NCBI RefSeq assembly: GCF_001458255.1
Contig: NZ_CYSB01000038.1
Span: 124,001 to 188,000, forward strand
DNA from: Thalassovita autumnalis
GTDB lineage: Bacteria > Pseudomonadota > Alphaproteobacteria > Rhodobacterales > Rhodobacteraceae
Reading direction: 5' to 3'
DNA: 64,000 nucleotides
Positions 28,398 through 44,553 of this stretch are shown one piece after another (the first letter of the stretch is position 1; every line of letters begins with the position of its first letter). The translations under genes and the position numbers were made by a program. The notes below the pieces were generated by a model. It saw nothing but the letters and a program-made list of their open reading frames with translations. It was not told where the DNA came from and did not search any database.

Positions 28398-29003
28398 ATG
28401 AGCCGTAACATCATTGCAATCCTGCGCGGGATCACCCCGCCTGAAGCTGTGGACATTGCTGGCCGCCTGATTGACGCGGGTATCACCCGGATCGAGGTGC
28501 CGCTCAACTCCCCCGATCCGCTGCAGTCGATCGCCTCCATGGTTGAGGCACATGGGGACAAGGCCCTGTTTGGGGCGGGCACGGTTTTGCAGCCGGAGCA
28601 AGTGGCTGATGTCGCTGCCGCAGGGGGCCGTCTGATCGTGTCGCCAGATTGCCATGTGCCGGTGATTGAGGCGACCAAACGTCTGAACATGCTGAGCTAT
28701 CCTGGCGTGATGACACCAAGCGAGGCCTTTACTGCCTGGCGTGCAGGGGCTGACGGATTGAAGTTTTTCCCGGCCAGCCTGATCGGTCCGGCGGGGCTGA
28801 AAGCCTACCGGGCGGTTCTGCCGAAAGATTTGCCCTGCTATGCTGTGGGCGGTGCGGGGCCTGATAACTTTGCAGAATGGCGCGCTGCGGGGGCAGATGG
28901 GTTTGGCATTGGAACAGCCCTTTATAAACCGGGTGAGTCGCCAGGTAGCATCAGCCAGAAAGCTGAAAAAATCGTTAAGTCCTACGATGAGGCAATGACA
29001 TGA
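28398..29003 (+). CDS. dgoA: 2-dehydro-3-deoxy-6-phosphogalactonate aldolase
   Basis: A 201-residue class I aldolase of the KDPG/KDPGal family. It splits KDPGal into pyruvate and glyceraldehyde 3-phosphate. E33 in RIEVPLNSP and the Schiff-base lysine K122 in DGLKFFPAS are present, with GAGTV and the phosphate-binding VGGAGPDN. The IEVPLNSPDP segment is the DgoA form; typical Eda proteins read IEVTLRT here. It overlaps the SMP-30 gene by 4 bp. Confidence 0.92.
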   Translation: MSRNIIAILRGITPPEAVDIAGRLIDAGITRIEVPLNSPDPLQSIASMVEAHGDKALFGAGTVLQPEQVADVAAAGGRLIVSPDCHVPVIEATKRLNMLSYPGVMTPSEAFTAWRAGADGLKFFPASLIGPAGLKAYRAVLPKDLPCYAVGGAGPDNFAEWRAAGADGFGIGTALYKPGESPGSISQKAEKIVKSYDEAMT

Positions 29004-29851
29004 GCGCCGAAGTCTTTGACAATCGAAGCTGTACCTTGGGCGAGGGGCCGCTTTGGCACCCGTTGCGCAAGCAGTTGTTTTGGTTTGATATTCTGGGTAA
29101 AAAGCTGCTCTCCCAACAGGATGGGCGGCCGCTGGAATGGCGGTTTCGCGATCATGTGTCCGCCGCTGGCTGGATCAGCAAGGACGAGTTGCTACTGGCC
29201 TCGGAAACTGGTCTGTCGCGGTTCAATCTGAACAGCGGTGAGCGTCAGCACCTTGTGGATATGGAAGCGGACAATCCCAAAACACGTTCAAACGACGGGC
29301 GTGCGGACCCTTTTGGTGGCTTTTGGATTGGCACAATGGGCTTTCAGGCAGAGCCTGGGGCAGGGGCGATTTACCGGTTTTATCAGGGTAAGCTGACCCG
29401 GTTGTTTGATAATATCACCATTTCCAACGCCATCTGTTTTGCGCCTGATGGCAGCTGCTCCTATTTCACCGATACGGTAACCAAGATGATCATGAAGCAG
29501 CCCCTGGATTCAGAAGGTTGGCCGCTGGGTGCGTCAGAAGTGTTCATCGATCTTAACGCCGGAAACCTGAACCCCGATGGCGCTGTTGTGGATGCGGAGG
29601 GTCGTTTGTGGAACGCGCAATGGGGGGCGTCGCGCGTGGCGTGTTACGGGCCGGATGGGGCGTTTCAACGTGCGGTGGAGGTTGGCGCGACACAGGCGTC
29701 TTGCCCTTCTTTCGGGGGCGCGGATCTGAACCAACTGTTTGTCACAACCGCAGCAGAAGGCCTGCCCGCTAACAGCGATCCGCTGAAGGGGCAAGTCTTT
29801 GTTACGAAAATGAATATCACCGGTCAGCCGGAACATCAGGTGAAAGTCTGA
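29000..29851 (+). CDS. SMP-30/gluconolactonase-family lactonase, probable galactonolactonase
   Basis: A 283-residue six-bladed beta-propeller lactonase. Divalent-metal ligands fit E15 in LGEGPLW, the asparagine in ISNAICFAPDGS and the aspartate in NPDGAVVDAEG. Placement between the KDPGal aldolase and beta-galactosidase genes suggests hydrolysis of galactono-lactone to galactonate, closing the step between the SDR and the dehydratase. Family members are promiscuous, so gluconolactone and arabinonolactone are also possible. Confidence 0.87.
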   Translation: MSAEVFDNRSCTLGEGPLWHPLRKQLFWFDILGKKLLSQQDGRPLEWRFRDHVSAAGWISKDELLLASETGLSRFNLNSGERQHLVDMEADNPKTRSNDGRADPFGGFWIGTMGFQAEPGAGAIYRFYQGKLTRLFDNITISNAICFAPDGSCSYFTDTVTKMIMKQPLDSEGWPLGASEVFIDLNAGNLNPDGAVVDAEGRLWNAQWGASRVACYGPDGAFQRAVEVGATQASCPSFGGADLNQLFVTTAAEGLPANSDPLKGQVFVTKMNITGQPEHQVKV

Positions 29852-29854
29852 GAC

Positions 29855-31789
29855 ATGAAACGTACGCTTGGCACTTGCTACTATCCCGAACATTGGCCGC
29901 GTGAGATCTGGCGCGAAGATGCGCGCCGGATGGCCGAAATTGGCCTCACCTGGGTCAGGATTGGTGAGTTCAGCTGGTCGCGGCTGGAGCCACGGCCGGG
30001 CGAGTTGCAGTTTGGCTGGCTGGATGAGGCGATCGAGGTGCTGGGCGCCGCTGGTCTGCGCGTTGTTTTGGGCACGCCAACCGCGACACCGCCGCGCTGG
30101 ATGCTGGACCGTCATCCCGACATGCTGGCGGTGGATGCCGAGGGGCGACTGCGGAAATTTGGCTCCCGTCGACATTATTGTTTCAGTCATGAGGGGTATA
30201 AGCAGGAGTGCGCCCGGATCGTGACGCTTATGGCGGAAAGATATGGGCGCAACCCGCATGTGGCGGCCTGGCAGACGGACAATGAATATGGCTGTCACGA
30301 TACCACGATTTCCTATTCTGATGCTGCACGACAGGGATTTCAGCGCTGGCTGGCGCAGCGTTATCAAAATATTCATGATTTGAACCGAGACTGGGGCAAT
30401 GTCTTCTGGTCGATGGAGTATGATTGTTTTGAAAACATAGACTTACCAAACCTAACGGTGACAGAGCCCAACCCGGCGCATAGCCTGGCGTTCCGGCGCT
30501 TTGCCTCGGATCAGGTGGTTGCGTTCAATCGTCTGCAGGTGGAGATCATCCGGCAGCATTCCGCCGCGCCGATTGCGCATAACTACATGGGGCGGATCAC
30601 GGATTTTGATCACTTCAAGGTCGGCGATGATCTGGAAATTGCCAGCTGGGATAGCTATCCGCTGGGCTTCCTGGAGGATCGCGTTGGCGCGGATGCGGAC
30701 CGACAGCGCAAATATGCCCAACAGGGGGATCCAGACTTTCAGGCTTTCCACCACGATCTTTACCGCGCTGTTGGCAGGGGCCGTTGGTGGGTGATGGAAC
30801 AGCAACCCGGGCCGGTCAACTGGGCACCTTACAATCCGGCACCCTTGCCGGGGATGGTGCGGCTTTGGTCGTGGGAGGCGTTTGCCCACGGCGCTGAGGC
30901 TGTGTGCTATTTCCGCTGGCGGCAGGCGCCGATGGCGCAGGAGCAGATGCATGCCGGCATGTTGCGGCCGGATTCCGTTGACGCCCCCGCGGCGGAGGAG
31001 GCGCGTGTGGTTGCAGCTGAACTGGTCGATGCGCCGGAGGTTTCAACCGGTCAGGCCCGGGTGGGGCTGATCTTTGACTATGATGCGGATGCCGCCTGGG
31101 CGGTGCAGCCGCATGGTGCAGGGCTGAGCTACTTTGGCGTGGTCTTTGACTGTTACCGTGCGCTGCGCAGCCTGGGGCTTTCGGTTGATATTCTGCGGCC
31201 TGAAACCGTGGATTTCTCGGGCTATCAGCTGGTGCTTGCGCCCGGCCAGATGCATATGCCTGAAGCGTTGAAAGCAGCCTTGGCAGAGCATGCCGGGCAG
31301 GCGCAGGTGTTGATTGGGCCGCGTTCGGGGGCGCGGGATCAGGATATGAACCTGCCCAATCCGCTGCCGCCAGCGATGCCGGGGTTGGATGTGACGGTTG
31401 CGCGGGTCGAAAGCCTGCGGCCAGATCTGCCAAGGAGCCTCGCCGCCAATGATGCCGGGATGGTTGGCCAGATCGAAGGCTATCAAGAGGTGCTGGAAGG
31501 TAGCGCTGAGGTCACCCTGCGGGACGCCAACGGTGCGCCTGTTGCGATGCGCGCGGGCAATGGCACCGGTGCGCTGACCTATCTTGGCGCCCTGTTGGAT
31601 CAAGCGGGCTGGCTGCGGGTGATTGCACCGCTGTGTCAGGCCGCTGGGATTGAGACGGAGGCGTTGCCAGATGGGCTGCGCCGCCGCGATTGTGGCGAAG
31701 AACGGTTCTGGTTCAATCACTTGCCGGAAGAAATCACCCTTAACGGGCGCAAGTTTGCGCCGCTTTCGGTGACACGCGAAGAGATCTGA
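29855..31789 (+). CDS. Beta-galactosidase, GH42
   Basis: A 644-residue GH42 enzyme. The catalytic barrel begins GTCYYPEHWP; the acid/base E144 lies in TDNEYGCH and the nucleophile E315 in VMEQQPGPVNW. From about residue 390 a glutamine-amidotransferase-like trimerisation domain follows (RVGLIFDYDADAAWAVQPHG), then a C-terminal beta domain. There is no signal peptide, so it acts in the cytoplasm. It closes the galactoside operon and is followed by a terminator. With GH36 it covers alpha- and beta-linked galactose. Confidence 0.93.
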   Translation: MKRTLGTCYYPEHWPREIWREDARRMAEIGLTWVRIGEFSWSRLEPRPGELQFGWLDEAIEVLGAAGLRVVLGTPTATPPRWMLDRHPDMLAVDAEGRLRKFGSRRHYCFSHEGYKQECARIVTLMAERYGRNPHVAAWQTDNEYGCHDTTISYSDAARQGFQRWLAQRYQNIHDLNRDWGNVFWSMEYDCFENIDLPNLTVTEPNPAHSLAFRRFASDQVVAFNRLQVEIIRQHSAAPIAHNYMGRITDFDHFKVGDDLEIASWDSYPLGFLEDRVGADADRQRKYAQQGDPDFQAFHHDLYRAVGRGRWWVMEQQPGPVNWAPYNPAPLPGMVRLWSWEAFAHGAEAVCYFRWRQAPMAQEQMHAGMLRPDSVDAPAAEEARVVAAELVDAPEVSTGQARVGLIFDYDADAAWAVQPHGAGLSYFGVVFDCYRALRSLGLSVDILRPETVDFSGYQLVLAPGQMHMPEALKAALAEHAGQAQVLIGPRSGARDQDMNLPNPLPPAMPGLDVTVARVESLRPDLPRSLAANDAGMVGQIEGYQEVLEGSAEVTLRDANGAPVAMRAGNGTGALTYLGALLDQAGWLRVIAPLCQAAGIETEALPDGLRRRDCGEERFWFNHLPEEITLNGRKFAPLSVTREEI

Positions 31790-31864: not shown

Positions 31865-33157
31865 TTATTGATCCAGCGGCAGCTTGCTGGGCACTTCACT
31901 TGGGATTTCAAAGCTTTGAGCCGCCGCCGCGGTGCCGGTCAGGCTGTCCAGAAAGGCGAGGATATCCTCAACCTCATCTTCGGAAAGGCGTGGCAGATCA
32001 ATCTCTTGGCTGGCAGCGAGGCGGGCCATTTCCAGCCGGTCGGCCTGTGCCACAAAATCGATTGGCGCGAGCCATGGGGCAGACACCAGTTGCGCATCCT
32101 CTGGCTGCCAATCCGCGCGCATGCCACTGGGGTCCAGGTGGTGGGCCAGCATCTGGCGCAGGGTTTGATAGGCGCCGTTGTGACCGTAAGGGGCCGTCAG
32201 CGCGACGTTGCGCAGGGGCGGGGTGCGGAAGCGGTAGGCGTCTTCCAACCGATCACTTTCGCCCATGCGGCCAACATCGCGCACCATCGGATCAAACCGG
32301 CGGGTCCGACCAGGGCCAAAGGCGGGCAGGGCGAGGGCGTGGAATTTCTGATCGCTAAGCAGCGGGCCTGAGTGGCAGCTGGCGCAGACCGCCTTGCCGT
32401 AAAACAGATCCATGCCGCGTTCGGCGGCGGGGGTTAGTGCTGTCTTGTCCCCAGAAAGATAACGATCTAACGCGCTGTCATAGCTGCGAAATTCAGTGCC
32501 GACAAAGGCGGCCAGCGCGTTGGCAATCTCGGTAATTGTGACCTGATCGGGGGTCTTAATATGGTCGAAGGCCTCAATGAACATCTCCCCATATTGCGGC
32601 AGGGTGCGGACCCGTTTGGCAACGATGGGCCAGCCGTAATCGATCCGGTCATTGACCGCGCCTGCAACCTCATTTTCTTCAGACCCGCCCGCCATTTCGG
32701 TAGCTGAGGTCAGCGGAAACAGCGCCTGTGCTGCCAAAAGTGAATTCAGCCCCTCGGGCAGCCATTCCTCACCCGGGGTGTTGAAGCCATTTTCATAGTC
32801 ATCCCCGATCGAAATCCGACCGTCATGCATCAGGATCGAGACCTCTTTGGCCCCAAGGTTCCACAGCGCCGGCGCGTTGCGCGGCACCCGTTTTTCGATC
32901 CGGGCCGCCCCTGTGCCGCTGGTGCGTTTTGGACCCAGTCCAACACCGCCTTCACCGACCCCAAGTGACAGGCCGTCAGAGGTGCCAAGACTGGGGTGGT
33001 GACAGGTGGAGCAGCTGATATTTTTGTTTCCTGACAATATTTTATCAAAAAACAATAGGCGGCCAATCTCTGCTTGCTTTGCGTCGAATTCTATAAAATC
33101 CTGTGGTCCAAGCGGCACCGGTCCGGCCTCGGAATGGGCGGGATGTGACAGTGCCAA
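31865..33157 (-). CDS. Di-haem cytochrome c peroxidase / MauG family, start uncertain
   Basis: A periplasmic di-haem protein with two c-type haem sites, ISCSTCHHP and VCASCHSGP, and the family segments RNAPALWNLG, SATEMAGG, TPPLRNVALTAPYGHNGAYQTL and VEDILAFLDSLTG. It would reduce hydrogen peroxide or oxidise a protein partner. The start is a problem. A signal-peptide-like stretch HWGLLLGFGSLLALSHPAHSEA is encoded between about 33190 and 33128, but the only start codon there is the TTG at 33157, which removes half of it. The next in-frame ATG (33433) lies well inside the opposite-strand Sel1 gene. The coordinates give the minimum reading. A rare start codon, an overlapping long leader or a sequence error are possible. 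Confidence 0.75.
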   Translation of the reverse strand: MALSHPAHSEAGPVPLGPQDFIEFDAKQAEIGRLLFFDKILSGNKNISCSTCHHPSLGTSDGLSLGVGEGGVGLGPKRTSGTGAARIEKRVPRNAPALWNLGAKEVSILMHDGRISIGDDYENGFNTPGEEWLPEGLNSLLAAQALFPLTSATEMAGGSEENEVAGAVNDRIDYGWPIVAKRVRTLPQYGEMFIEAFDHIKTPDQVTITEIANALAAFVGTEFRSYDSALDRYLSGDKTALTPAAERGMDLFYGKAVCASCHSGPLLSDQKFHALALPAFGPGRTRRFDPMVRDVGRMGESDRLEDAYRFRTPPLRNVALTAPYGHNGAYQTLRQMLAHHLDPSGMRADWQPEDAQLVSAPWLAPIDFVAQADRLEMARLAASQEIDLPRLSEDEVEDILAFLDSLTGTAAAAQSFEIPSEVPSKLPLDQ

Positions 33158-33187
33158 AAGCGACCCGAACCCGAGGAGAAGACCCCA

Positions 33188-33658
33188 ATGCGCCGCCTGA
33201 TTTTTGCCCTTGCGCTTGCTGCCACCCCTGCCGTTGCCGAGATCGAAAAAGCGCGAGATCTGATGGAGGCGGGGGAATTCCCGGCCGCCTATGATGCGCT
33301 GTGGCCGGCGGCGCGGTCGGGCAATGCCGATGCGGAAGAGCTGATCGGCATCATGTATGCCATGGGACTGGGGGTTGAGCGCGATGATGAGCGGGCGTTT
33401 GAATGGTATTTGCGCAGCGCGATGAAGGGCCATCCCGGCGCGCAGTCGGGGGTGGGCTGGTATTATGAGATCGGGCGCGGCATGCCCACGCCGGATCTGA
33501 CCCGCGCCTATATGTGGTATACGCTCAGCGCGATTGGCGGCGATCCCGACGCGGCGATCAGCCTGGAAGAAGTGATTAAGAAGATGACGCCGGAGCAGAT
33601 TGAAAAAGCGCATATCTTGGTCGCCGATTATAGGGCCTGGATGTATCCGTTCCGTTAA
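33188..33658 (+). CDS. Exported Sel1-repeat protein
   Basis: A 156-residue protein with a Sec signal peptide (MRRLIFALALAATPAVAEIE) and about three Sel1-like repeats. Examples are AARSGNADAEELIGIMYAMGLGV, YLRSAMKGHPGAQSGVGWYYEIG and YMWYTLSAIGGDPDAA. Sel1 repeats are alpha-solenoid protein-protein interaction modules. GGAGAAGACCCCA precedes the ATG. It is head to head with the peroxidase, and its 5' end overlaps the peroxidase signal region. Function is unknown; a periplasmic scaffold is plausible. Confidence 0.85.
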   Translation: MRRLIFALALAATPAVAEIEKARDLMEAGEFPAAYDALWPAARSGNADAEELIGIMYAMGLGVERDDERAFEWYLRSAMKGHPGAQSGVGWYYEIGRGMPTPDLTRAYMWYTLSAIGGDPDAAISLEEVIKKMTPEQIEKAHILVADYRAWMYPFR

Positions 33659-33714: not shown

Positions 33715-34776
33715 TTATTGCAGGTCAGCGTCGCGGGCGCCGTTGATGTCTGCCTCAGCCGCGGCAACCGCTTCGGTCAGCGCGTTGAAGGCCATCTCAC
33801 CCTTGTCGACGTTGGTTTTGAACCAGTCGTAAACGGGCGAAGCGGCTTCTTTGAAGGCCGCTTTCTGGGCCGGGGTCGGCACGTAAAGGTCCCCGCCACC
33901 AGCAACGAACTCTTCATAGGCGGCGATGGATTTACGCTTGGGCGAGGCAAAGGTTGCCTGTTGCAGCGCGTAGAAGCCATCCACCACCACGCGGCGCATA
34001 TCTTCGGGCATGCCGGTGAAGGTTTCGTTACTCATCCACCACAGCGCACCCATGTAGGCGTGGCCGTCCAGGGTGACATACTGCAGGCCGGCATCGGGGA
34101 ATTTCATGCCCATGATGTCGGTGATGCCGTTTTTAGACCCTTCAACCACACCGGTCTGGAACGAGGTGAACAGTTCAGGCCACGGGATCGGGGTGGGCGA
34201 GGCGCCCAGTGCCTTAACCAGTTCCTGCGGCAGGTCGGCAACCACGGTACGGATCTTCAGACCTTCCATATCGGCAGGTTCCGCCACGCGGCGTTTGGTG
34301 TTGGCAAAGTTGCGCCAGCCGCCGGTGTTGCCGATGGTCATCAGGCGGATGGTGTCGCCGCTGTCTGCCAGCGCCATCTGGCGCAGGGTGCGGGTGAACT
34401 CACCCGACAGCACATGTTCCGCAACACGGTCGTCCGCCATCAGGTAAGGCAGGTCCAGCACCTGAACATAGGGGAATAGGCCAGCGGCCCCGCCCGAGGT
34501 CGAGATGTAGACGTCGATCGAACCGTCAGCCACACCCTGCAGACATTCCGCACCGTTCGAGCACAGCTGGGTGCCGATGAACAGCTCTACCTCGATGGCG
34601 CCGTTGGAGGCAGCCTCGACGTAGTTTTTGAACACGACCAGACCGTCATAGTCTTCGTCGTTTTCGTTCGAGTTGGCGGTGGCCCGGATGGTGTAATCCG
34701 CAGCCTGCGCCGCAGAGAGTGCGGTGCCAGCCATCAGGCCCGCGAGGGCCAGGGTTTTCAGTGTTTTCTTGAGCAT
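33715..34776 (-). CDS. TRAP transporter solute-binding protein (DctP family)
   Basis: A 353-residue periplasmic binding protein with a Sec signal peptide (LKKTLKTLALAGLMAGTALSAAQA). Family landmarks include EVELFIGTQLCSNGAECLQGVADGSIDV, the arginine-bearing substrate loop MEGLKIRTVVADLPQELVKALG and PWPELFTSFQTGVVEGSKNGI. GGGAGGAACACGC precedes the ATG at 34776. It is the last gene of a six-gene operon headed by a flavin monooxygenase. TRAP systems for sulfonates such as isethionate and taurine are known, so an organosulfonate ligand is a reasonable prediction. The specific ligand is inferred. Confidence 0.9.
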   Translation of the reverse strand: MLKKTLKTLALAGLMAGTALSAAQAADYTIRATANSNENDEDYDGLVVFKNYVEAASNGAIEVELFIGTQLCSNGAECLQGVADGSIDVYISTSGGAAGLFPYVQVLDLPYLMADDRVAEHVLSGEFTRTLRQMALADSGDTIRLMTIGNTGGWRNFANTKRRVAEPADMEGLKIRTVVADLPQELVKALGASPTPIPWPELFTSFQTGVVEGSKNGITDIMGMKFPDAGLQYVTLDGHAYMGALWWMSNETFTGMPEDMRRVVVDGFYALQQATFASPKRKSIAAYEEFVAGGGDLYVPTPAQKAAFKEAASPVYDWFKTNVDKGEMAFNALTEAVAAAEADINGARDADLQ

Positions 34777-34823
34777 GCGTGTTCCTCCCTGAGTGCTCAT
34801 ATTTTGTCTGAAATGGTTAAGGT

Positions 34824-36113
34824 TTAATTGGCGAACCCCGTCAGACGCGGGATCGTCATGGAGATTGCGGGGAAGAAGGTGATCAGGAAGATCACCACCA
34901 CCTCCACCGCAAGGAAAGGCAGAATGGCGCGGGCAATGGTGGTCACCCGTTCACCGGAAACGGCGGAGGCCACAAACAGCACCAGCCCCATCGGCGGTGT
35001 CGCCAGACCGACGGTCAGGTTCACACACATGATGATGGCAAAGTGGATGCTGTCGACGCCAAGGCCGGCAAAGACGGGGCCCAGGATCGGGCCCAGAATG
35101 ATGATCGCGGGGCCTGCGTCCAGGAACATGCCGACGACAAACAGCAAGAGGTTGATCAGGAACAGCAAAAGCAGCGGGTTCTCTGTCAGTGCCAGAATAA
35201 AGGCGGCCAACTGTTCAGGCGCATGGCTGAGCGACACAACGGTTTTGAACGACATGGCCGCGCCCACCAACAAGAGCACCACGGCTGAGGTCAGGCCAGC
35301 GCGGGTCAGCACATCGGGCAGTTCCGAGAACTTCAGCGTCTTGATCACGAAGAGGCCGATGAACAGCGCATAGGCCACGGCCACAGCGGCGGCTTCGGTC
35401 GGGGTGAAGACGCCAGCCAGGATACCGCCCAGAATGATCACCGGGGTCAGCAGCGGGAAAAACGCCTTGAGGCTGGCCTGACCACGTTCGCCCCAAGTCG
35501 CCTTTTGTGAGGCAACGGGGAAGTCATAGCGGTCTGCCATGACCTTGATCATCACCATCAAGCCAATGCCAACCATCACACCGGGCACGATGCCGGCCAG
35601 GAACAGCGCGGCGACGCTTTCGCCCATGACATAGGCGTAGATGATCATGATGCCCGAGGGTGGGATGATCGGGCCGATCACCGAACTTGCGGCGGTGATG
35701 GCGGCGGCAAACTTGCGGCTGTAGCCCTGTTTTTCCATCGCGGGGATCAGCATCGATCCCAGCGCCGAGGTATCCGCCACGGCAGAGCCGGAGAGGCCTG
35801 CAAACAGGATCGAGGACAGCACGTTCACGTGCGCCAGTCCACCGCGAAGGTGCCCCATCAGGGCCTGTGAAAACTCCACTAGCCGCAGTGTGATGCCACC
35901 GCGGTTCATCAACTCACCCGCCAGCATGAAGAAGGGGATCGCCATCAGCGGGAAGCTGTCCATTCCGTTGTAAAGGTTGCGGTACAGCAGCGTGATGTCA
36001 CGCTCTTGCCCGTTCAGCCACAGCAGCGCGCCGGGGGCGAACAACAGGGCAAAGAACACCGGTAGACCGATGAGAAGAAGCGCCAGAAAGAGGGGCAGGA
36101 ACCAGATGAGCAT
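34824..36113 (-). CDS. TRAP transporter large membrane subunit (DctM family)
   Basis: A 429-residue, roughly 12-span sodium-coupled membrane subunit. It begins MLIWFLPLFLALLLIGLPVF, and contains LSGSAVADTSALGSMLIPAM and PPSGIMIIYAYVMGESVAALF, typical DctM signatures. The ATG at 36113 overlaps the DctQ stop by one base (TAATG) with GGAGG upstream. An upstream in-frame start would lie inside DctQ and is rejected. Confidence 0.93.
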   Translation of the reverse strand: MLIWFLPLFLALLLIGLPVFFALLFAPGALLWLNGQERDITLLYRNLYNGMDSFPLMAIPFFMLAGELMNRGGITLRLVEFSQALMGHLRGGLAHVNVLSSILFAGLSGSAVADTSALGSMLIPAMEKQGYSRKFAAAITAASSVIGPIIPPSGIMIIYAYVMGESVAALFLAGIVPGVMVGIGLMVMIKVMADRYDFPVASQKATWGERGQASLKAFFPLLTPVIILGGILAGVFTPTEAAAVAVAYALFIGLFVIKTLKFSELPDVLTRAGLTSAVVLLLVGAAMSFKTVVSLSHAPEQLAAFILALTENPLLLLFLINLLLFVVGMFLDAGPAIIILGPILGPVFAGLGVDSIHFAIIMCVNLTVGLATPPMGLVLFVASAVSGERVTTIARAILPFLAVEVVVIFLITFFPAISMTIPRLTGFAN

Positions 36114-36703
36114 TATTCGGCGCCTCCCGAGACGACATGGGGCAGGGCAGGCAGCGCGTCGCCGCGGCCCAACAGGCGGATAAATCCGCGCAGGATAAGT
36201 TCGATGTTCACAGCAATAAGCATCGCCACCCCAATAAGGAGCGACAGCATCATCCAGCTGCGGGGGATGCGGTACCAACTGTCAAAGCTGAGCGAAGTCG
36301 GCAGGTAGAGCGAGGCGGTGGCGAAACGGCCGCCGATGCCGGTGACCTCTTTGTAGCCGATTTGCACAGCGATCACCAAAACGGTGAGGGACACGCACAG
36401 CAGCGCCAGCGACAGCAGGCGAATGGCGGTTTTGGGCAGCAGGGCCTCGATCGTATCAATCGCCACAAAACTGCCAGCGCGAAACGCGGTGGGCGCCATC
36501 AGGCCAGCCATCCACAACATGCAGAAACGCGCGGCCTCATCCGGCCAGGGCAGGGCGTTGTTCAGCACATAGCGGCAGAACACCTGCACCAGAATGACCA
36601 CCACCATCGTGGCAATCGCAAACACGCCAATCCAGCGCCCCAGCGCAAGCAGGGGCGTGAGTATCCCGTTAAAGACGCGGGCAAGCGTGATCAGTGCGCC
36701 CAT
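36113..36703 (-). CDS. TRAP transporter small membrane subunit (DctQ family)
   Basis: A 196-residue four-span protein. It shows the DctQ pattern: VILVQVFCRYVLNNALPWPDEAARFCMLWMAG in the first half, then two further hydrophobic segments. GGGAGGAACTGC precedes the ATG at 36703. It lies 84 bases behind the flavin reductase and is coupled to DctM. Confidence 0.9.
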   Translation of the reverse strand: MGALITLARVFNGILTPLLALGRWIGVFAIATMVVVILVQVFCRYVLNNALPWPDEAARFCMLWMAGLMAPTAFRAGSFVAIDTIEALLPKTAIRLLSLALLCVSLTVLVIAVQIGYKEVTGIGGRFATASLYLPTSLSFDSWYRIPRSWMMLSLLIGVAMLIAVNIELILRGFIRLLGRGDALPALPHVVSGGAE

Positions 36704-36787
36704 GCAGTTCCTCCCTTGCCGGGCCTCATTGGACCCTGGCATTTCGCCTCAGCTGTTGGCCCCGCTCCGCAACAGGGCCAGCGCGTT

Positions 36788-37306
36788 TTAATTCGTGGCC
36801 ATTTTGCCCATCTGACCCTTGAAGAAGGTCAGGGCGTCGCCGTCGTCACGCATCTCAGCGCGCAGCACCTCGCCCAGAACGATGGCGTGGTCGCCACCTT
36901 CGTAGATGGCGGTCTGGCGGCATTCGAAACGGGCCAGACATCCATCCAGCACCGGCACACCTTCGTTGTTCAGTTTCAGGCTTTCGCCTTTCAGCCCGGC
37001 AACATCCTTGGCCACGCGCCAGCACAGCTCATCCTGATCAGCGGCCAGAATGTGGATCGCGTAGTGCTGGGCCTTCTCAAAGAAGGGGAAGCGGCGCGAG
37101 TTCTTGTCGGGCGACCACAGCACCAGCGGCGGATCCAGCGAGACGCTGGAAAAGCTGTTGGCGGTGATGGCAACCGGTCCGGCCTCAGACGGGGCGGTGA
37201 CGATGGTCACGCCGGTGGCAAAGCGGCCAAAGGCATCGCGCAGCAGGCGGGTGTTGTTGGGATCAGGCACAAAGCTCTGGCCTGAGGGGGCGAAATCCAT
37301 ATGCAT
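36788..37306 (-). CDS. Flavin reductase, SmoA-like partner of the monooxygenase
   Basis: A 172-residue flavin-reductase-domain protein that supplies reduced FMN from NAD(P)H to a two-component monooxygenase. Visible motifs are RDAFGRFATGVTIVTA, ITANSFSSVSLDPPLVLWS and the C-terminal GGDHAIVLGEV. Its ATG overlaps the aldo/keto reductase stop by one base. Together with the reductase and SsuD-like genes it matches the flavin reductase, aldo/keto reductase and monooxygenase trio of the sulfo-SMO pathway. That assignment depends on gene context. Confidence 0.85.
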   Translation of the reverse strand: MHMDFAPSGQSFVPDPNNTRLLRDAFGRFATGVTIVTAPSEAGPVAITANSFSSVSLDPPLVLWSPDKNSRRFPFFEKAQHYAIHILAADQDELCWRVAKDVAGLKGESLKLNNEGVPVLDGCLARFECRQTAIYEGGDHAIVLGEVLRAEMRDDGDALTFFKGQMGKMATN

Positions 37307-38196
37307 CAGGGCACCTCCGTTCCCAGTGCGGCCTCATAAAGCAGGAACCAGGTTTCCCGATCCAACTGCACCTTCAGCGCGTCGGAAATGGTCTTGATCC
37401 GGTCCAGATTGTTGGTGCCCATCACCGGCAGGATCTTGGCCGGATGACGCAGCAGGAAGGCCACCGCCACCGCAGCGCGGTCGACACCCTGATCGGCGGC
37501 AATTGCGTCCAGACGCTGGGCCAATGGGCTGTCCCCGGTCATCAGGCTGCCACCGCCCAAGGGCGACCATGCCATCAGCGGTGTTGCCTCTTTCTGGTGG
37601 AAGGCCAGATCGCCATTGGTGAAGGGGCTGATTTCGGCCAGCGAAATTTCAATCTGGTTGGTGACCAGCGTGGTTTTCATCGCCGATTGCAGCAGCTCCC
37701 AGTCCCAGGGGCGGAAGTTGGACACCCCGACCGAACGCACCTTGCCTGATGCGACCAGATCATCCAGCGCGGCGCCGGTTTCATTGTGGTCCATCAGCGG
37801 GTCCGGGCGGTGGATCAGCAGCAGATCGATATGGTCAATCGCCATATCCCGCAGCGACATCTCAACCGAGGCTTCGATATGCGCGCGCGAAGTGTCGTAG
37901 TATTTCACCTTCTTATCCGCGTAACGGCCGATCGGCGCGACGATGTCACATTTGGTGACGATCTCCATCTGGTTGCGCAGGCCCGGGTTGGCTTTCAGCG
38001 CGCCGCCCAGGATCGCCTCGGCGACATAGCCGCCGTAGATGTCGGCCTGGTCAAAGGTGGTGATGCCCTGATCCAGACAGGCCTGGATTTTGGCCTCAAC
38101 CGTGGCGGGCGAGGTGTCTTCGACATCGCCGATGCGCCACATGCCGTAAATCAGCTGGCTAAAGGACAGATCAGAGGTGAGGGAAATGCGGTCCAT
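37306..38196 (-). CDS. Aldo/keto reductase, SmoB-like
   Basis: A 296-residue NAD(P)H-dependent reductase. The catalytic tetrad is complete: D49 and Y54 in FDQADIYGG, K82 in IVTKCD and H129 in LLIHRPDP. The cofactor region reads PVMGTNNLDRI. In the sulfo-SMO pathway such an enzyme reduces 6-oxo-glucose, released by desulfonation of sulfoquinovose, to glucose. Its gene overlaps those of the monooxygenase and flavin reductase by one base each, which argues for a shared pathway. Detoxification of another aldehyde product is the alternative. Confidence 0.88.
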   Translation of the reverse strand: MDRISLTSDLSFSQLIYGMWRIGDVEDTSPATVEAKIQACLDQGITTFDQADIYGGYVAEAILGGALKANPGLRNQMEIVTKCDIVAPIGRYADKKVKYYDTSRAHIEASVEMSLRDMAIDHIDLLLIHRPDPLMDHNETGAALDDLVASGKVRSVGVSNFRPWDWELLQSAMKTTLVTNQIEISLAEISPFTNGDLAFHQKEATPLMAWSPLGGGSLMTGDSPLAQRLDAIAADQGVDRAAVAVAFLLRHPAKILPVMGTNNLDRIKTISDALKVQLDRETWFLLYEAALGTEVP

Positions 38197-39350
38197 TAGC
38201 GACGAACTCCTGCGCCAAGGGGGGTGAGGGGGGTAGCGGCCGGAACCCGGCCATATTCATGCGGCAGCGAACAGGTTTTGAGGTTCGGCAGAACCCGCTG
38301 GCCAAAGTGTTTCGCTTCTTCTTCATGCGGATACCCCGACAGGATGAAGGCCCGGATGCCCATTTTCTGATAGGCTTCCAGCTTTGACATAACCTGATCG
38401 GTGGAGCCGACAAGCGCCGCACCGCAGCCCGAACGGGCCCGGCCAACGCCAGTCCAGAGGTTGGGCTCGATGTAGCCGTCATCATCAGCGATATCGCGGT
38501 TCTTGGCCTGATGGCTGACACCCAACGATTTGGCGTCCAGCGCCCGTTCCCGGATCGCCTTGCCCTGATCGTCATCCAGTTTGGAGACGATGTAATCGGC
38601 GTATTCGCGCGCCTCTGCCTCGGTGTCGCGCACGATCACATGGACACGCAGACCGTAGTCCAGCGTGCGGCCGTGTTTCTCGGCAACGGCGTGGACGGCC
38701 TTCATCCGGCCTTCCAGCTCTTCCATCTTTTCCGGCCACATCAGGTAGACGTCGCAATGTTCGCCACACAGCTCCAGCGCGTCGGGCGAATAGCCCCCGA
38801 AGTAGAGCAGCGGACCGCCGGTCTGATAGGGGCGCACCGGATCCGTGGTCAGGCCGGAGAAGTTATAGACCTGACCGGCGTGGTTGATCTCATCCAGGGT
38901 CCAAGCCTGTTTCAGGATCTCCACCACTTCACGCGAACGCTGGTAACGGTAGGGGCTGTCAGCTTTTTCACCGGGGAAGTCCGAGGAGATGATGTTGACC
39001 GTCAGGCGGCCTTCCAGCATGTGATCCAGCGTTGCGATGGTGCGGGCCAGCATGATCGGCTGCATCTCACCGCAGCGCACCGCGGCCAGCATGTTGATCT
39101 TTTCGGTGATCGGTGCACAGCCCGCGACAAAGCTGAGCGTGTCCTGACCCACCTGATAGGACGAGGGGCACAGGATATTGCGGAAGCCCTGCGCCTCGGC
39201 GGTTTTTACGATGTCTGAGCAATGCGACCAGGATGACCGCAGGTCCCCCTCAGGCACGCCCAGAAACTGATAGTCGTCGGAACAGAGTGCGGCGAACCAA
39301 GAAACCTCGGCCGCATCCAGGCCAGCTGAGGTGATTGGGACAACTGTCAT
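38196..39350 (-). CDS. SsuD/luciferase-like FMN monooxygenase, candidate sulfoquinovose monooxygenase
   Basis: A 384-residue group C flavin monooxygenase. SsuD-like features include FRNILCPSSYQVGQDTLSFVAG, INMLAAVRCGEMQPIMLARTIATLDHML, GRLTVNIISSDFPGEKADSPYRYQRSREVV and LLYFGGYSPDALELCGEHCDVYLMW. GGGAGGAATTCGC precedes the ATG. It heads the operon and is followed, with one-base overlaps, by an aldo/keto reductase and a flavin reductase. That trio matches sulfo-SMO, where the enzyme removes sulfite from sulfoquinovose. A plain alkanesulfonate monooxygenase would not need the reductase. No ssuABC or ssuE gene is adjacent. Confidence 0.85.
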   Translation of the reverse strand: MTVVPITSAGLDAAEVSWFAALCSDDYQFLGVPEGDLRSSWSHCSDIVKTAEAQGFRNILCPSSYQVGQDTLSFVAGCAPITEKINMLAAVRCGEMQPIMLARTIATLDHMLEGRLTVNIISSDFPGEKADSPYRYQRSREVVEILKQAWTLDEINHAGQVYNFSGLTTDPVRPYQTGGPLLYFGGYSPDALELCGEHCDVYLMWPEKMEELEGRMKAVHAVAEKHGRTLDYGLRVHVIVRDTEAEAREYADYIVSKLDDDQGKAIRERALDAKSLGVSHQAKNRDIADDDGYIEPNLWTGVGRARSGCGAALVGSTDQVMSKLEAYQKMGIRAFILSGYPHEEEAKHFGQRVLPNLKTCSLPHEYGRVPAATPLTPLGAGVRR

Positions 39351-39416: not shown

Positions 39417-39441
39417 TTGATGTAGATCAATGGTGCATCAA
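39417..39441. promoter_or_regulatory. Candidate GntR operator in the divergent promoter
   Basis: A palindrome TTGAT-GTAG-ATCAA occupies 39417-39430. Its first half-site TTGATG recurs inverted as CATCAA at 39436-39441. It sits 32 bases before the GntR start and 67 bases before the monooxygenase start, well placed to control both. Recognition by the adjacent regulator is inferred. Confidence 0.5.
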
Positions 39442-39472
39442 TTTTCCTGAGACGAGGGAGGAAGGTCACAGG

Positions 39473-40183
39473 ATGTATGAGAAAGGCGATCGGCCCTCTG
39501 CGCTGCCGATCTATCTGCAAATCTCTGAAGTGCTGATCCGTGAGATCGCTGCGGGCCGCCTGGTAGATGGCTCACGCCTGCCGCCGGAACGTGAATTGGC
39601 CAAGCAACATGGGACCACCGTACGGACCCTACGGAAGGCGCTTGCAGAGCTAGAGAAACAAGGCCTGTTGGAACGGGTCCAGGGTTCGGGCAATTATGTC
39701 CGGGCGGGCGGTGATGTGGACAGCGTCTATTCGATGTTCCGGCTGGAACTTGTCAGCGGCGGTGGCCTGCCCACGGCGGACATTCTGTCGATCGAGGAAT
39801 GTGATAAAAGCGAAAGTTTCCGCACATTCGGGACGTCAAAACGCGGCACGCGAATCAGACGCCTGCGATTCTTGGACAAGCGTCCCATCGCGGTGGAGGA
39901 GATCTGGCTGGACCGGGATGCCGGGGCGGTGGAGCCCGCCCATGTCTCAGATTCGCTATATCGCTACTACAAGATGAAGCTGGGGTTCTGGGTCACCCGG
40001 GCCGAGGATTACGTCAGCATTGGTACCACGCCGGATTGGGCGCCCGCAGGGTTTGGCAAACCGGCCGGGGCGCCGGTGGGCTATATCGAACGGTTGAGTT
40101 GGGCGCAGGCGCCCGCGCCGGTCGAATTTTCGCGAACATGGTTTGACACGGATGTTGCGCATTACGTGCAGCGTCTGAAATGA
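39473..40183 (+). CDS. GntR-family (HutC/UTRA) regulator of the monooxygenase locus
   Basis: A 236-residue regulator. The N-terminal GntR winged helix reads LPIYLQISEVLIREIAAGRLVDGSRLPPERELAKQHGTTVRTLRKALAELEKQGLLERVQGSGNYV. The C-terminal UTRA domain includes RIRRLRFLDKRPIAVEEIWLDRDAG and YIERLSWAQAPAPVEFSRTWF. The ATG at 39473 has GGGAGGAAGG upstream; in-frame codons before it overlap the divergent gene and are not conserved. UTRA domains usually bind sugar phosphates or similar small polar ligands, which would fit a sulfosugar or its product. Confidence 0.88.
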   Translation: MYEKGDRPSALPIYLQISEVLIREIAAGRLVDGSRLPPERELAKQHGTTVRTLRKALAELEKQGLLERVQGSGNYVRAGGDVDSVYSMFRLELVSGGGLPTADILSIEECDKSESFRTFGTSKRGTRIRRLRFLDKRPIAVEEIWLDRDAGAVEPAHVSDSLYRYYKMKLGFWVTRAEDYVSIGTTPDWAPAGFGKPAGAPVGYIERLSWAQAPAPVEFSRTWFDTDVAHYVQRLK

Positions 40184-40192
40184 GGAAGACAA

Positions 40193-41299
40193 ATGAAGAA
40201 ACAGGTTAACTACGGCATCATCGGCTGCGGCATGATGGGGCAGGAACATCTGCGCAATATCGCACTTTTGGAGGGGGCAGAGGTCGCTGTGATCTTTGAA
40301 CCCGATGCCGAGATGGCCGCGAAATCGCAGGCCATCGCGCCAAAGGCGCGGATGGCGGCGGATGTGGTCGATCTGCTGTCTGAGCCGGATTTGGATTGCG
40401 TGCTGATCGCCAGCCCGAACTACCGCCATGTTGAGCAGTTGGAACAGATGGCGGCTGAGCGTCCGGTGCCTGTGCTGGTGGAAAAACCCCTGTTCACCGA
40501 TCCCGCGGATGTGGCCCGGCTGGACCAGTTTATTGCGACCTATCCCGCGCCGGTCTGGGTGGCGATGGAATACCGTTATATGCCGCCCATCGCGGCCCTG
40601 CTAGAGGCGGCAAAAGGCGCAACCGGGGGCATCAAAATGCTGACCATCCGCGAACACCGATTCCCGTTTCTGGAAAAAGTTGGCGATTGGAATCGATTCA
40701 ACCGCTACACTGGTGGCACCTTCGTGGAAAAATGCTGCCACTTCTTTGACTTGATGCGTCTGGTTCTAGGGGCGGAGCCGATCCGCGTGATGGCGTCGGG
40801 CGGTCAGGATGCCAATCACTTGATTGAGGAATATGAAGGCGAGCGCCCCGATATCCTTGATAATGGCTATGTCATTGTGGACTTCGCCGGCGGCGCCCGC
40901 GCCATGCTGGAACTGTGCATGTTCGCCGAAGGCTCCCGCTATCAGGAAGAGGTCAGCGCGGTTGGCCCTGAAGGCAAGATTGAAGCGCTGGTGCCCGGGC
41001 CAGGCCGGTTCTGGCCGGACCACCTGGGCGCCCCGCCTGTGCCGCAACTGATTGAGAGCCCACGTGATCCCAAAGGCCCTGTTGTGCGGGAAATCCCAGT
41101 GGACCCGGAACTGCTGGAAGCGGGCGATCACAACGGCTCGACCTTCTATCAGCACCAGAAGTTCCTGGAACTGGTGCGCGGTGAACGTGACGGGCCCGAG
41201 GTCAGCTTCAACGACGGCAAAATGGCCGTACTGATGGGGATGGCTGCCCAAATCTCGATGAAAGAGGGCCGCGTGGTGGAGATGGCTGAGCTGCTGTGA
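40193..41299 (+). CDS. Gfo/Idh/MocA-fold protein, candidate NAD-dependent sulfoquinovosidase
   Basis: A 368-residue protein with an N-terminal Rossmann domain (YGIIGCGMMGQEHL), VLVEKPLFTDPADV with the EKP lysine, and EYRYMPP and REHRFPFLEKVGDWNRFN in the substrate domain, followed by TFVEKCCHFFDLMRL. It lies nine bases behind the GntR gene, divergent from the monooxygenase operon. Two readings are possible. It may be an ordinary sugar dehydrogenase. Or it may belong with the GH188 NAD-dependent sulfoquinovosidases, which share this fold and would free sulfoquinovose from its glycerol glycoside; no GH31 sulfoquinovosidase is present in the window. The second reading rests on context. Confidence 0.75.
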   Translation: MKKQVNYGIIGCGMMGQEHLRNIALLEGAEVAVIFEPDAEMAAKSQAIAPKARMAADVVDLLSEPDLDCVLIASPNYRHVEQLEQMAAERPVPVLVEKPLFTDPADVARLDQFIATYPAPVWVAMEYRYMPPIAALLEAAKGATGGIKMLTIREHRFPFLEKVGDWNRFNRYTGGTFVEKCCHFFDLMRLVLGAEPIRVMASGGQDANHLIEEYEGERPDILDNGYVIVDFAGGARAMLELCMFAEGSRYQEEVSAVGPEGKIEALVPGPGRFWPDHLGAPPVPQLIESPRDPKGPVVREIPVDPELLEAGDHNGSTFYQHQKFLELVRGERDGPEVSFNDGKMAVLMGMAAQISMKEGRVVEMAELL

Positions 41300-41435: not shown

Positions 41436-44435
41436 TCAAACCTCGCTCAGGATCTGGTCCAAGGCGTCGAGGATCATCTCGATCCCTTCTGCGTCGACAG
41501 ACAGGGGCGGGCGGATTTTCAGGATGTTGTCCTTCGGCCCTTCGCTGCCCAAGAGGATCCGATGCGCCCGCATGCGGTTCTTGACGTAAGAAGCAATCTC
41601 GGTCCCTTCACGGCGGCTGTCTGCGTCGGTGATCAGCTCCACGCCAACAAACAGGCCCATGCCGCGCACGTCGCCCACGACCTCATACTTGGCTTCCAGC
41701 GCCTTCAGCCCCATCATCAGCTTGTCGCCCATGGCCTTGGCGTTCGCTTGCAGTCCTTCGTCATCGACGATGTCCAGAACCTCCTTGCCGATGCGGCAGG
41801 ACAGGTTGGAGCCGCCGAAGGTTGAGAAGAACTCAGGTCCCTCAGCGAAGCTTTCGGCGATGGCTTTGGTGGTGACCAACACGCCCAGCGGATGGCCGTT
41901 GCCGATCGGTTTTCCCATGACCACGATGTCGGGCAGGGCGCCCTGATGTTCAAAACCAAAGTAGTAGTCACCCAGACGGCCCAGCCCGGTCTGCACCTCA
42001 TCGGCAATACAGACCCCGCCAGCGGCACGGATTTTCTCATAGACCGCAGGCAGGTAGCCCTTGGGCGGGATGATCTGCCCACCGACGGAGGGGAAGGTTT
42101 CCGCGATAAAGCCCGCAACGCCATGGCCCTTGTCCTGCAGCGCGGCAATCGCGGGATCAACCAGATCGGCGTATTTCTGGGCGCGGTCTGCGTCATCCCG
42201 ACCAAAGCGGCCGCGATAGTCATCAGCGACCTCAACAAGTTCCACCCAGTCAGACTGCCCAACGCCGCCCTTGGCGTTGAATTTATAGGCCGAGATATCG
42301 ATCACCCCGGTGGTGTTGCCATGATAGCCGTGATCGGGCGTCACCATGCCCTTCGCACCGGTGTGGGCGCGGGCCAGACGCAGGGCTAGCTCATTAGCCT
42401 CTGTGCCGGAGTTCACAAAGAAACAGACCTCAAACGGTTCCGGCAGTTTCGACAGCACTTTTTCGGCAAAGGCGGTCTGTGCAGGATGCAGATAGCGGGT
42501 GTTGGAGTTCATCCGCTTCAGCTGATCTGCTGCCACGGCCTGAATGCGCGGATGGGCATGGCCCACATGTGGCACGTTGTTATAGGCATCCAGATAGGGG
42601 CGGCCCCATTCGTCAAACAGGTGGTGTTTCCAACCACGCACCAGCATCACCGGATCCTTGTAGGTCAGGCTGAGGTTGCCGCCGAAATGCGCTTTGCGAC
42701 CGGCCAGAACTTCGGCCTTGTTGGTCGGCTCATAGCGCACCTTGTCCGCCGGCAGATTGAGCAGCGCAGCCGGGTTGGGGCAGACCCCTTCCCACAGGTA
42801 CATCTCATCCGGATCGCCCACACCGGGCCAGTCATGGCCCATGCCGTCGGTGGTCAGCGCCAGCTGGAAATGGATATGTGGCGCCCAACCGCCGTTCTGG
42901 CTGGGGTCACCAAGGCGGGCAAACACCTCACCCTTGGTCAGCTCCTGCCCGATGGTCAGCGTGTCGACCACATCCGCGGCCAGATGGCCATAGAGCGTGT
43001 AAAACGTATCGCCCTCAGGCGTTTCATGGCTGAGGATCACCACCCCGCCATAATCCAGATGGCCGGTGCGGTTTTCCACCACATGCACCTTGGCCGCCAT
43101 CGGCGTGGCCACGGGGGTGCCTGCGGGCGCAAAGACATCCACCGCCAGATGCACCGTGCGCCGGTTCGAAGCCTTCCACGGCCCTTTGCGGAAGGCGGGT
43201 TCGGCGTAGATCAGGCGTGGTTCGTTGTAGTAGCCGATCCACCAGCCGTCCTGGTCGCCATACTCTGCGCCCAGCTGGGCGGCTTCCTCAATCGGCATAT
43301 CAAAGGGGTTCTGCGGCTCCGCGCAGTTTTCAACTGAGAGGGAGCCCATCGGCACATCGGTTAGATCGCGGCCCATAACAGGGGCAAAATTGCCCTGTTC
43401 GGCGGCCAGGAAGGCATGGATGCGCTCGGCCGCATTGGTTACCGGCAGGCCACAAGCAGCGCGAAGGCGGGCCTTCAGCAGGCCGGGGTGTTCATTGTCA
43501 CGCTCCAGATAGCGCCAGGCCGGGGCCTGCGAGATGGTCACATAAGGATCATCGGGGTTGTCTGCCGCCTCAATGGTGGAGTTCACGACCGAAACCGCCA
43601 GCCGCAACCGCAAGAGCGGCTCGACCATGTCGACCTCGGCCGCGCTCAGCGGGTTTTGGATGTGATAGCCTGCCACCAGATGGGCCAGCGCCACCTCAGG
43701 CGCGGGATGATCCAGCACGATATAGGCGGCGGCAATGGCAAGGTTGCAGATCCGCGGCGCGGCGCACATATCGCCAAAGTCGATCACGCCTGACACCTGT
43801 AGTGGTTCATAGGCGCCGCCGGTGACCAACACATTATAATCATTGACGTCGTTGTGGATCGCCTGTTTCGGCAGGGTCATCAGGCGCGGCCAGATCAGCG
43901 CCACGTCAGACAGGATGCCATGCAGAATACCCTGACGTGTTAGGTCACTGATAACCTGCGTGTGCCCGCCGATCCATTGGCCCTGCATCAGATCCCATTT
44001 GAAATCACGCGTCAGCGCCGGGTGCTGGAAATCCGCCATCGCCAGATCGGTCGCGCCCAGGATCTGGCCCAACTCCTCGATCAGTTCGGGTGTCTTGGGG
44101 CTGTGTTTGGCGTAGCACTGGCCCGGCAGCTTCTCCAGCAGCCAGCACAGGCGATCCTGGCCCTGTTCATCCTGCAGCGTGGCAATGGTGGCGCCGTCTT
44201 TGGTGGCGATCACCTTGGGGTAGGGCAGGGCATCGGATTTTTCGGCAATATGGGCCATGGCGGCGACCTGCATCTCAATCAGATCGGCCGCACAACCGGG
44301 GCGCATGACCTTCAGCACAAAATCGCCCCGCGCGCCGGCCTCAGCCAGAATGTTCAGGTCATATTCACCGTCGAGCCCAGTCAGCTCAGCCTCAATACCC
44401 CAGGCCGCTTTCAGGGCCGCTTGCCAATGTGTCAT
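41436..44435 (-). CDS. Three-domain fusion: APH-type kinase, M23 peptidase-like, class III aminotransferase
   Basis: A 999-residue fusion. Residues about 1-350 form an aminoglycoside-phosphotransferase-like kinase with the Brenner motif HNDVNDYN (H194, D196, N201) and VIDFGDM. Residues about 400-570 match M23/LytM peptidases with a full zinc set, H429-x3-D433 and H520-x-H522. Residues about 590-999 are a class III PLP aminotransferase with NSGTEANELALRLAR, IADEVQTGLGR and the PLP lysine K842 in MGKPIGNG. Known relatives pair such kinases with phospho-lyases acting on phosphoethanolamine or phosphohydroxylysine. There is no signal peptide, so the peptidase-like part should be cytoplasmic. AGGAGGATGGC fixes the ATG at 44435. 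The substrate is unknown. Confidence 0.88.
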   Translation of the reverse strand: MTHWQAALKAAWGIEAELTGLDGEYDLNILAEAGARGDFVLKVMRPGCAADLIEMQVAAMAHIAEKSDALPYPKVIATKDGATIATLQDEQGQDRLCWLLEKLPGQCYAKHSPKTPELIEELGQILGATDLAMADFQHPALTRDFKWDLMQGQWIGGHTQVISDLTRQGILHGILSDVALIWPRLMTLPKQAIHNDVNDYNVLVTGGAYEPLQVSGVIDFGDMCAAPRICNLAIAAAYIVLDHPAPEVALAHLVAGYHIQNPLSAAEVDMVEPLLRLRLAVSVVNSTIEAADNPDDPYVTISQAPAWRYLERDNEHPGLLKARLRAACGLPVTNAAERIHAFLAAEQGNFAPVMGRDLTDVPMGSLSVENCAEPQNPFDMPIEEAAQLGAEYGDQDGWWIGYYNEPRLIYAEPAFRKGPWKASNRRTVHLAVDVFAPAGTPVATPMAAKVHVVENRTGHLDYGGVVILSHETPEGDTFYTLYGHLAADVVDTLTIGQELTKGEVFARLGDPSQNGGWAPHIHFQLALTTDGMGHDWPGVGDPDEMYLWEGVCPNPAALLNLPADKVRYEPTNKAEVLAGRKAHFGGNLSLTYKDPVMLVRGWKHHLFDEWGRPYLDAYNNVPHVGHAHPRIQAVAADQLKRMNSNTRYLHPAQTAFAEKVLSKLPEPFEVCFFVNSGTEANELALRLARAHTGAKGMVTPDHGYHGNTTGVIDISAYKFNAKGGVGQSDWVELVEVADDYRGRFGRDDADRAQKYADLVDPAIAALQDKGHGVAGFIAETFPSVGGQIIPPKGYLPAVYEKIRAAGGVCIADEVQTGLGRLGDYYFGFEHQGALPDIVVMGKPIGNGHPLGVLVTTKAIAESFAEGPEFFSTFGGSNLSCRIGKEVLDIVDDEGLQANAKAMGDKLMMGLKALEAKYEVVGDVRGMGLFVGVELITDADSRREGTEIASYVKNRMRAHRILLGSEGPKDNILKIRPPLSVDAEGIEMILDALDQILSEV

Positions 44436-44538
44436 GCCATCCTCCTGACATCTGCCCAATGCCGGAGTGTGCGGCGGATTTGGGCAAAACCTCTTTGGCC
44501 ACTTGGTAGACGGTTTTGTAAACGATCCCAAGGCAGAA

Positions 44539-44553
44539 TGGATAAAATATCCA
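44539..44553. promoter_or_regulatory. Palindrome upstream of the fusion gene
   Basis: TGGATA-AAA-TATCCA, a 6-bp inverted repeat about 105 bases before the fusion gene start and 45 bases after the permease 3' end. TGGATA recurs in the promoter of the nearby GntR gene (47998-48003), so it may be that regulator's site. Confidence 0.35.

Follow-up and report, generated by a model that had tools for sequence, protein, structure and literature searches.

Sulfoquinovose is a sulfur-containing sugar that is abundant in the membranes of plants and algae. In Agrobacterium it is reportedly broken down by the sulfoquinovose monooxygenase (sulfo-SMO) pathway, comprising SmoA, SmoB and SmoC together with an ATP-binding cassette (ABC) importer, SmoEFGH, and a glycoside hydrolase of family 31 (GH31), SmoI. 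Here we describe a locus in a 64,000-nucleotide stretch of the Thalassovita autumnalis genome (contig NZ_CYSB01000038.1; “the window,” whose positions are used throughout) that likewise carries, judging by sequence, SmoC and SmoB orthologs and a flavin reductase in one operon, but that has a tripartite ATP-independent periplasmic (TRAP) transporter and a family 188 (GH188) enzyme in place of the Agrobacterium importer and GH31 hydrolase. Sulfoquinovose production amounts to ~10 billion tons/year (PMC10755693), sulfo-SMO has been called prevalent in the Roseobacter clade (PMC13372026), and GH188 genes are near-universal in the sulfo-SMO clusters of marine Roseobacter-clade bacteria (PMC10755693). 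As this pairing is already published, the enzyme set as such is known, and the window resembles those clusters in having SMO genes with GH188 and no GH31. TRAP, MauG and Sel1 genes are not mentioned in the portion of that text available, and its figures or supplement may show the arrangement. We consider it very probable that the locus is a TRAP-type sulfo-SMO cluster for sulfoquinovose uptake and breakdown.

The pathway assignment is carried by the monooxygenase and the aldo/keto reductase. In a structure search, the monooxygenase (smoC, 38196–39350, minus strand) scored 688 bits against 7OLF and 683 against 7OH2, which we take to be SmoC structures (the entries are labeled methanesulfonate sulfonatase and alkanesulfonate monooxygenase), and 292 of 383 aligned residues are identical to 7OLF. 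The next entry scored 191 bits and E. coli-type SsuD 188, so that the monooxygenase, for which clustering with alkanesulfonate SsuD proteins had been named beforehand as the refuting outcome, sides with SmoC and not with the SsuD/MsuD structures (188–191 bits). The aldo/keto reductase (smoB, 37306–38196, minus strand) scored 427 bits against both 7BBY and 7BBZ, which we assume to be SmoB, with 217 for the next best entry and 196 of 295 aligned residues identical to 7BBY; D49, Y54, K82 and H129, presumably the catalytic tetrad, are all present, as a preliminary description of this DNA had claimed along with the sulfo-SMO enzyme set itself. On these scores, the two proteins are SmoC and SmoB orthologs (FMNH2-dependent sulfoquinovose monooxygenase and 6-oxo-glucose reductase) in a true sulfo-SMO operon rather than an alkanesulfonate system. 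The third gene (36788–37306, minus strand) encodes a flavin reductase of the FerA/HpaC type (PF01613, 125.6 bits; NCBIfam FerA, 201 bits, missing the cut-off of 260), and by family it is a putative smoA.

Downstream on the same strand lie the three TRAP genes, namely dctQ for the small permease (36113–36742; PF04290, 77 bits), dctM for the large permease (34824–36113; TIGR00786, 430 bits, exceeding the cut-off of 268) and dctP for the solute-binding protein (33715–34800; PF03480, 178 bits), predicted to bind sulfoquinovose or sulfoquinovosyl-glycerol. The six co-directional minus-strand frames announced for 33715–39350 were all recovered, and profile matches agree with the families named for them (SsuD-like Bac_luciferase, aldo/keto reductase, flavin reductase, DctQ, DctM, DctP). 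The one-base overlaps described among the first three genes are likewise there (smoC/smoB, TAATG; smoB/smoA, TGATG), as is another at dctQ/dctM (TAATG), where the dctM start ATG shares one base with the dctQ stop. These limits proved too narrow, however, since a regulator and GH188 gene on one side (39473–41299) and a Sel1/MauG-like pair on the other (31865–33658) belong to the locus as well.

The GH188 gene (sqgA, 40193–41299, plus strand) has a product with only Gfo/Idh/MocA domains in Pfam; in the structure search it scored 566 bits against 8ZN9 and 359 against the GH188 structures 8QC2 and 8QC3, with 76 for the next best entry. Among nine published catalytic and sulfonate-binding residues tried, eight match (K98, Y127, R156, L160, K162, E179, H183 and H313, corresponding to ArSqgA K107, Y136, R166, L170, K172, E189, H193 and H321); for the ninth, Glu163, the published numbering offset fails, giving Val in ArSqgA itself, and an adjoining Glu is kept in the window enzyme. 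By these matches the product is a GH188 NAD-dependent sulfoquinovosidase. The statement that no GH31 gene is present thus holds, and does so across the whole source genome (4.36 Mb, rated 100% complete) by profile search, but a sulfoquinovosidase is not missing, as the GH188 enzyme sits in the same cluster. The GH31 model's single genome match (24 bits, cut-off 23.5) was rejected as a weak cross-match to a GH36 gene at 22742–24925.

This arrangement recurs among relatives. The comparison set consisted of the 80 named SmoC loci nearest to the window, the best 80 among at least 582 confirmed; they come from Rhodobacteraceae, other Roseobacter-type records and Roseibium/Labrenzia. GH188 is present in 77 of them, and the block smoC-smoB-smoA-dctQ-dctM-dctP with gntR and GH188 is complete in 58 (pieces cut by contig ends counted), so the arrangement is not a matter of chance. 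The importer is of the TRAP type in 60 loci, of the ABC type with a YeiH-like gene after it in 9, and neither in 11, in 3 of which the contig ends within ~2.2 kb. On a SmoC tree of 94 rows (the 80 loci, 13 further loci and the window; 89 rows labeled), importer state switches at least 13 times. The TRAP importer of the preliminary description therefore stands as to its DctP, DctQ and DctM subunits, all present, and is not unusual, being the commonest importer among these 80 loci. In nine loci (L007, L013, L032, L034, L038, L039, L043, L065 and L075) a sugar-type ABC importer and a YeiH-like exporter stand behind smoA in place of the TRAP genes, the ABC importer being incomplete in L043; no SmoF entry, going by codes we take to be those of SmoF, occurred among 12 structure matches for the ABC importer of TRAP-less loci. 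Some dctM orthologs (e.g., in L019, L021 and L031) have an apparent insertion relative to the window protein, their alignments reaching 106% of query length.

Linkage between importer and pathway was also evident in a family survey of 394 genomes from 393 genera, drawn evenly from a larger group (thresholds of E ≤ 1e-100 for SmoC, DctP and MauG-like proteins and E ≤ 1e-25 for Sel1). SmoC occurred in 165 genomes, DctP in 144 and both in 110 (Fisher p = 1.6e-26, uncorrected for descent); where the places of both genes were listed (99 of the 110), smoC and dctP lay within 8 kb of each other in 92 genomes and on different contigs in 7. DctP without SmoC was found in 34 genomes, and in 21 of these the surroundings, examined in all 34, hold a PfkB kinase, a LacD-type aldolase, an isomerase with a fucose-isomerase C-terminal domain and GH188 near the TRAP genes. 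The queries for these neighbors were taken from L086 and L087, themselves among the 34, and for the L086 kinase the top structure match is the sulfofructose kinase 7AG6 (204 bits, against 160 for the next entry). These clusters may fit a sulfoglycolytic Embden–Meyerhof–Parnas (sulfo-EMP) route of the sulfo-EMP2 type. One importer is thus common to two kinds of cluster that have sulfoquinovose as their shared point, so the cargo would be sulfoquinovose or its glycoside; this double association is the best evidence on DctP cargo, and import of sulfoquinovose is the probable role of the TRAP system. Loci L090 (G040) and L106 (G226) have SmoB and TRAP genes without SmoC; L090 also carries smoA, gntR and GH188, with smoB and gntR matches only ~280 bases apart.

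A second component follows the importer. To the left of dctP, beyond a terminator-like hairpin with a T run (seen by eye), lies sel1 (33188–33658, plus strand), encoding a Sel1-repeat protein (PF08238) with a signal-peptide-like start, and then a divergent gene for a MauG-like di-heme c-type enzyme (31865 to ~33205, minus strand, start codon unsettled), with CSTCH and CASCH motifs and a PF03150 match of 119.5 bits. A full-length DctP is encoded in 57 of the 80 nearest loci, and 50 of these 57 have both sel1 and the MauG-like gene in the available piece; the pair is absent from all 8 loci that encode a full-length ABC binding protein. In the family survey Sel1 was present in 105 genomes, all with DctP, and in 0 of the 250 genomes without DctP, including 0 of 55 that have SmoC; among DctP genomes it occurred in 78 of 110 with SmoC and 27 of 34 without. 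Its distance from dctP is no more than 8 kb in 85 of the 105 genomes, while in 20 it is further off or on another contig, and in all six loci examined in which Sel1 is far from dctP, MauG still adjoins it.

The Sel1–DctP association also held on a SmoC+SmoB tree of 115 genomes, in which the 17 independent pairs on supported branches comprised on average 12 in agreement, 0 opposed and 5 undecided (median p 0.0005, range 0.0002–0.002). The tree comprised the source genome, 100 of the 135 SmoC genomes for which gene places were listed (all 46 without DctP and 54 of the 89 with it) and 14 others, ten chosen because of a Rieske gene and four because of a MauG-like paralog; DctP and Sel1 were both present in 54 genomes, DctP only in 10 and neither in 51. 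It represents two cluster genes and not species, and the signal partly reflects joint transfer of a linked locus.

The Sel1 protein was modeled as helical repeats (predicted local distance difference test, pLDDT, 90), and a fold search returned the Sel1-repeat fold only; the MauG-like model (pLDDT 59) was not used. With MauG, MbnH, BthA and cytochrome c peroxidase the MauG-like protein shares two CxxCH motifs and a CCP_MauG domain. Its best curated model is TIGR03981 (MauG-like, His-Xaa-Ser system; 256 bits, missing the cut-off of 340), and MauG proper, for tryptophan tryptophylquinone biosynthesis, was rejected (128 bits against a cut-off of 444; His, not Tyr, at the position judged equivalent). 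According to PMC6405878, the six-coordinate heme has a Met ligand in bacterial cytochrome c peroxidase (bCCP) and Tyr in MauG, whereas the window-type protein has His at the position judged equivalent and is accompanied by a Sel1-repeat protein and a TRAP importer. At the bCCP Met-ligand position, reached by a two-residue alignment extension, His occurs in 84 of 86 proteins of other loci and Met in 2; among 14 MauG-like paralogs there are 8 with Met and 6 with His, and 7 of the 8 paralogs that adjoin smoA or a smoA-like gene carry Met where the window protein has His. A MauG-like gene is also part of a methanethiol oxidase operon in other bacteria, according to PMC5739008. Possible roles are peroxide defense, protein maturation or direct oxidation of a periplasmic substrate.

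How far do other explanations account for these data? An alkanesulfonate desulfonation operon of the SsuD/MsuD type that gained an unrelated aldo/keto reductase would fit the monooxygenase's membership of the SsuD superfamily (246 bits with the curated SsuD model), but that score is far below the model's equivalog cut-off of 518, SmoC structures score more than three times as many bits as SsuD/MsuD, and the cluster also contains SmoB and GH188; this explanation is practically ruled out. A TRAP system that adjoins the SMO genes by chance and carries something else (a sialic-acid-like compound, a dicarboxylate or a short sulfonate) finds some support, as the best structure match of DctP is an uncharacterized TRAP protein (119 bits), followed by sialic-acid proteins (106) and the isethionate protein 8T9T (95), and as 4 of the 34 SmoC-less DctP loci have no sulfoquinovose gene set nearby. 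DctP indeed belongs to the same family as SiaP and 8T9T, and its R184, which does not vary among 57 SMO-linked and 21 sulfo-EMP-linked orthologs, aligns with a SiaP arginine that we take to be R147; R127, the second of the SiaP arginines, pairs with W162 in this alignment and with the adjoining R163 in a pairwise one. DctP differs from both proteins in falling into a separate group tied to sulfoquinovose genes, 170 of its positions are kept at ≥95% in both the SMO-linked and the sulfo-EMP-linked group, and chance proximity accords poorly with the tight smoC–dctP linkage and with the 21 loci beside a different sulfoquinovose-type cluster and GH188. We regard another cargo as unlikely.

The Sel1/MauG-like pair admits more doubt. 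As a general peroxide defense or a passenger with no working link to the TRAP importer, it would explain why MauG-like relatives, paralogs included, are widespread (202 of 394 genomes), which makes this gene alone unspecific, and why paralogs (50–54% identity) occur without Sel1 in eight loci, directly after smoA in genomes lacking DctP (L148–L151) or beside a smoA-like gene (L153–L156). Sel1, on the other hand, was never found without DctP across the survey, MauG adjoins Sel1 in 6 of 6 examined loci where Sel1 is far from dctP, and the tree pairs stand at about 12 to 0, so that we judge an unlinked pair somewhat unlikely. In L148–L151 and L154, no TRAP or ABC importer query matched apart from a weak ATPase match, and the paralog there is a candidate peroxidase for flavin-derived hydrogen peroxide. 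A more specific proposal is that the TRAP genes encode a dedicated sulfosugar importer for two routes and that the MauG-like enzyme, in the periplasm, oxidatively modifies its Sel1 partner (or DctP), a step needed for sulfoquinovose uptake; this is speculative and, as a whole, quite unlikely.

Several results count against the overall picture of a pathway, its importer and an associated module. The flavin reductase was assigned at the family level only. Thirteen of the 34 SmoC-less DctP loci lack the full sulfo-EMP set (kinase, isomerase and GH188 in 2, kinase only in 1, SMO genes in 5, gntR and GH188 only in 1, and none in 4, of which one is a 3.6-kb contig and one has a SmoA-like gene). The L086 aldolase scores 306 bits against 8TNF, at most 141 against tagatose-bisphosphate aldolases and only 66 against sulfofructosephosphate aldolase, and the L086 isomerase has no structure match at all, only its fucose-isomerase C-terminal domain. 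Because Sel1 is near dctP in 85 of 105 genomes, their association is due in part to the transfer of both within a single locus, and the 39 DctP genomes without Sel1 indicate that Sel1 is not always needed; an earlier tree test on named loci gave only 2 supported pairs, too few to decide.

Regulation may be common to both arms of the locus. Divergent from smoC, and with an in-frame ATG at 39473, gntR (39473–40183, plus strand) encodes a GntR/UTRA regulator (PF00392 and PF07702), and the gap between the two genes holds a candidate operator box, AAAATTGATGCACCATTGATCTACATCAA (39417–39445, minus strand), kept in smoC upstream regions. Among 81 such regions, the gapped palindrome TTGAT-N4-ATCAA occurs in 53 and ATTGATAC in 64, the window variant being ATTGATGC. 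Elsewhere in the genome there are 5 molybdopterin oxidoreductase domain matches, 10 TauE-type exporter matches (one of each ~1.3 kb apart on contig C37) and one YeiH-type gene, and so sulfite export and oxidation are possible in the source organism.

Taken together, the gene content suggests a route in which DctPQM would import sulfoquinovose or sulfoquinovosyl-glycerol and a cytoplasmic SqgA would release sulfoquinovose from the glycoside. SmoC, with reduced flavin mononucleotide (FMNH2) presumably supplied by SmoA, and oxygen, would then convert sulfoquinovose to sulfite and 6-oxo-glucose, which SmoB would reduce to glucose. The GntR/UTRA protein likely regulates both arms through the TTGAT-N4-ATCAA box, and the Sel1-repeat protein and the MauG-like enzyme would form part of the TRAP arm, acting in the periplasm.

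Beside the cluster, at 17751–31789, lies a De Ley–Doudoroff-type galactoside operon (IclR, ABC importer, GH36, dehydratase, short-chain dehydrogenase/reductase, DgoK, an aldolase of the 2-keto-3-deoxy-6-phosphogluconate type, lactonase and GH42); together the two could make use of the head groups carried by the main glycolipids of thylakoids. Six genes of this operon (GH42, lactonase, aldolase, kinase, dehydratase and GH36) had no match in any of the 80 nearest loci, most of whose pieces end ~5 kb past dctP, so that the comparison covered just the closest genes. On the other side, a single frame at 41436–44561 fuses an aminoglycoside-phosphotransferase (APH)-type kinase domain, a peptidase M23 domain and a class-III aminotransferase, near an ABC ATPase and a THI5/NMT1-like binding protein. 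Ten other SMO loci (L128, L129, L131, L134, L137, L138 and L142–L145) have a Rieske oxygenase downstream of GH188, nine of them with a dimethylglycine-dehydrogenase-like gene alongside, and the source genome has no Rieske oxygenase match at E ≤ 1e-100. Loci L097 and L116 have a Rieske gene with SmoB and SmoA and without SmoC; the idea drawn from them, that the oxygenase is a general SmoC replacement, was dropped, as the ten Rieske loci still have SmoC.

The pathway itself is known, its main enzymes are clear and its importer is probable, while one module is unexplained; what may be new is the TRAP variant with its MauG/Sel1 module. Among the titles listed on sulfoquinovose with TRAP or tripartite transport, PMC12421959 included, none names an importer for sulfoquinovose, and the original Agrobacterium and Roseobacter papers may contain the TRAP arrangement; for MauG with Sel1, or for pairings among sulfoquinovose, MauG, cytochrome c peroxidase and Sel1, no relevant title appeared among those listed. 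The TRAP variant of the cluster, and the Sel1/MauG-like module linked to it, may thus be parts that were not recognized before. A TRAP importer accompanies most (60 of 80) of the sulfo-SMO loci of the nearest relatives and, if our reading is right, DctP would be a marker of sulfoquinovose uptake across pathways. The MauG/Sel1 module would then be an unexplained element, accessible to testing, in how a major sulfur sugar is used and, should the proposed modification prove true, a novel type of protein maturation linked to a transporter.

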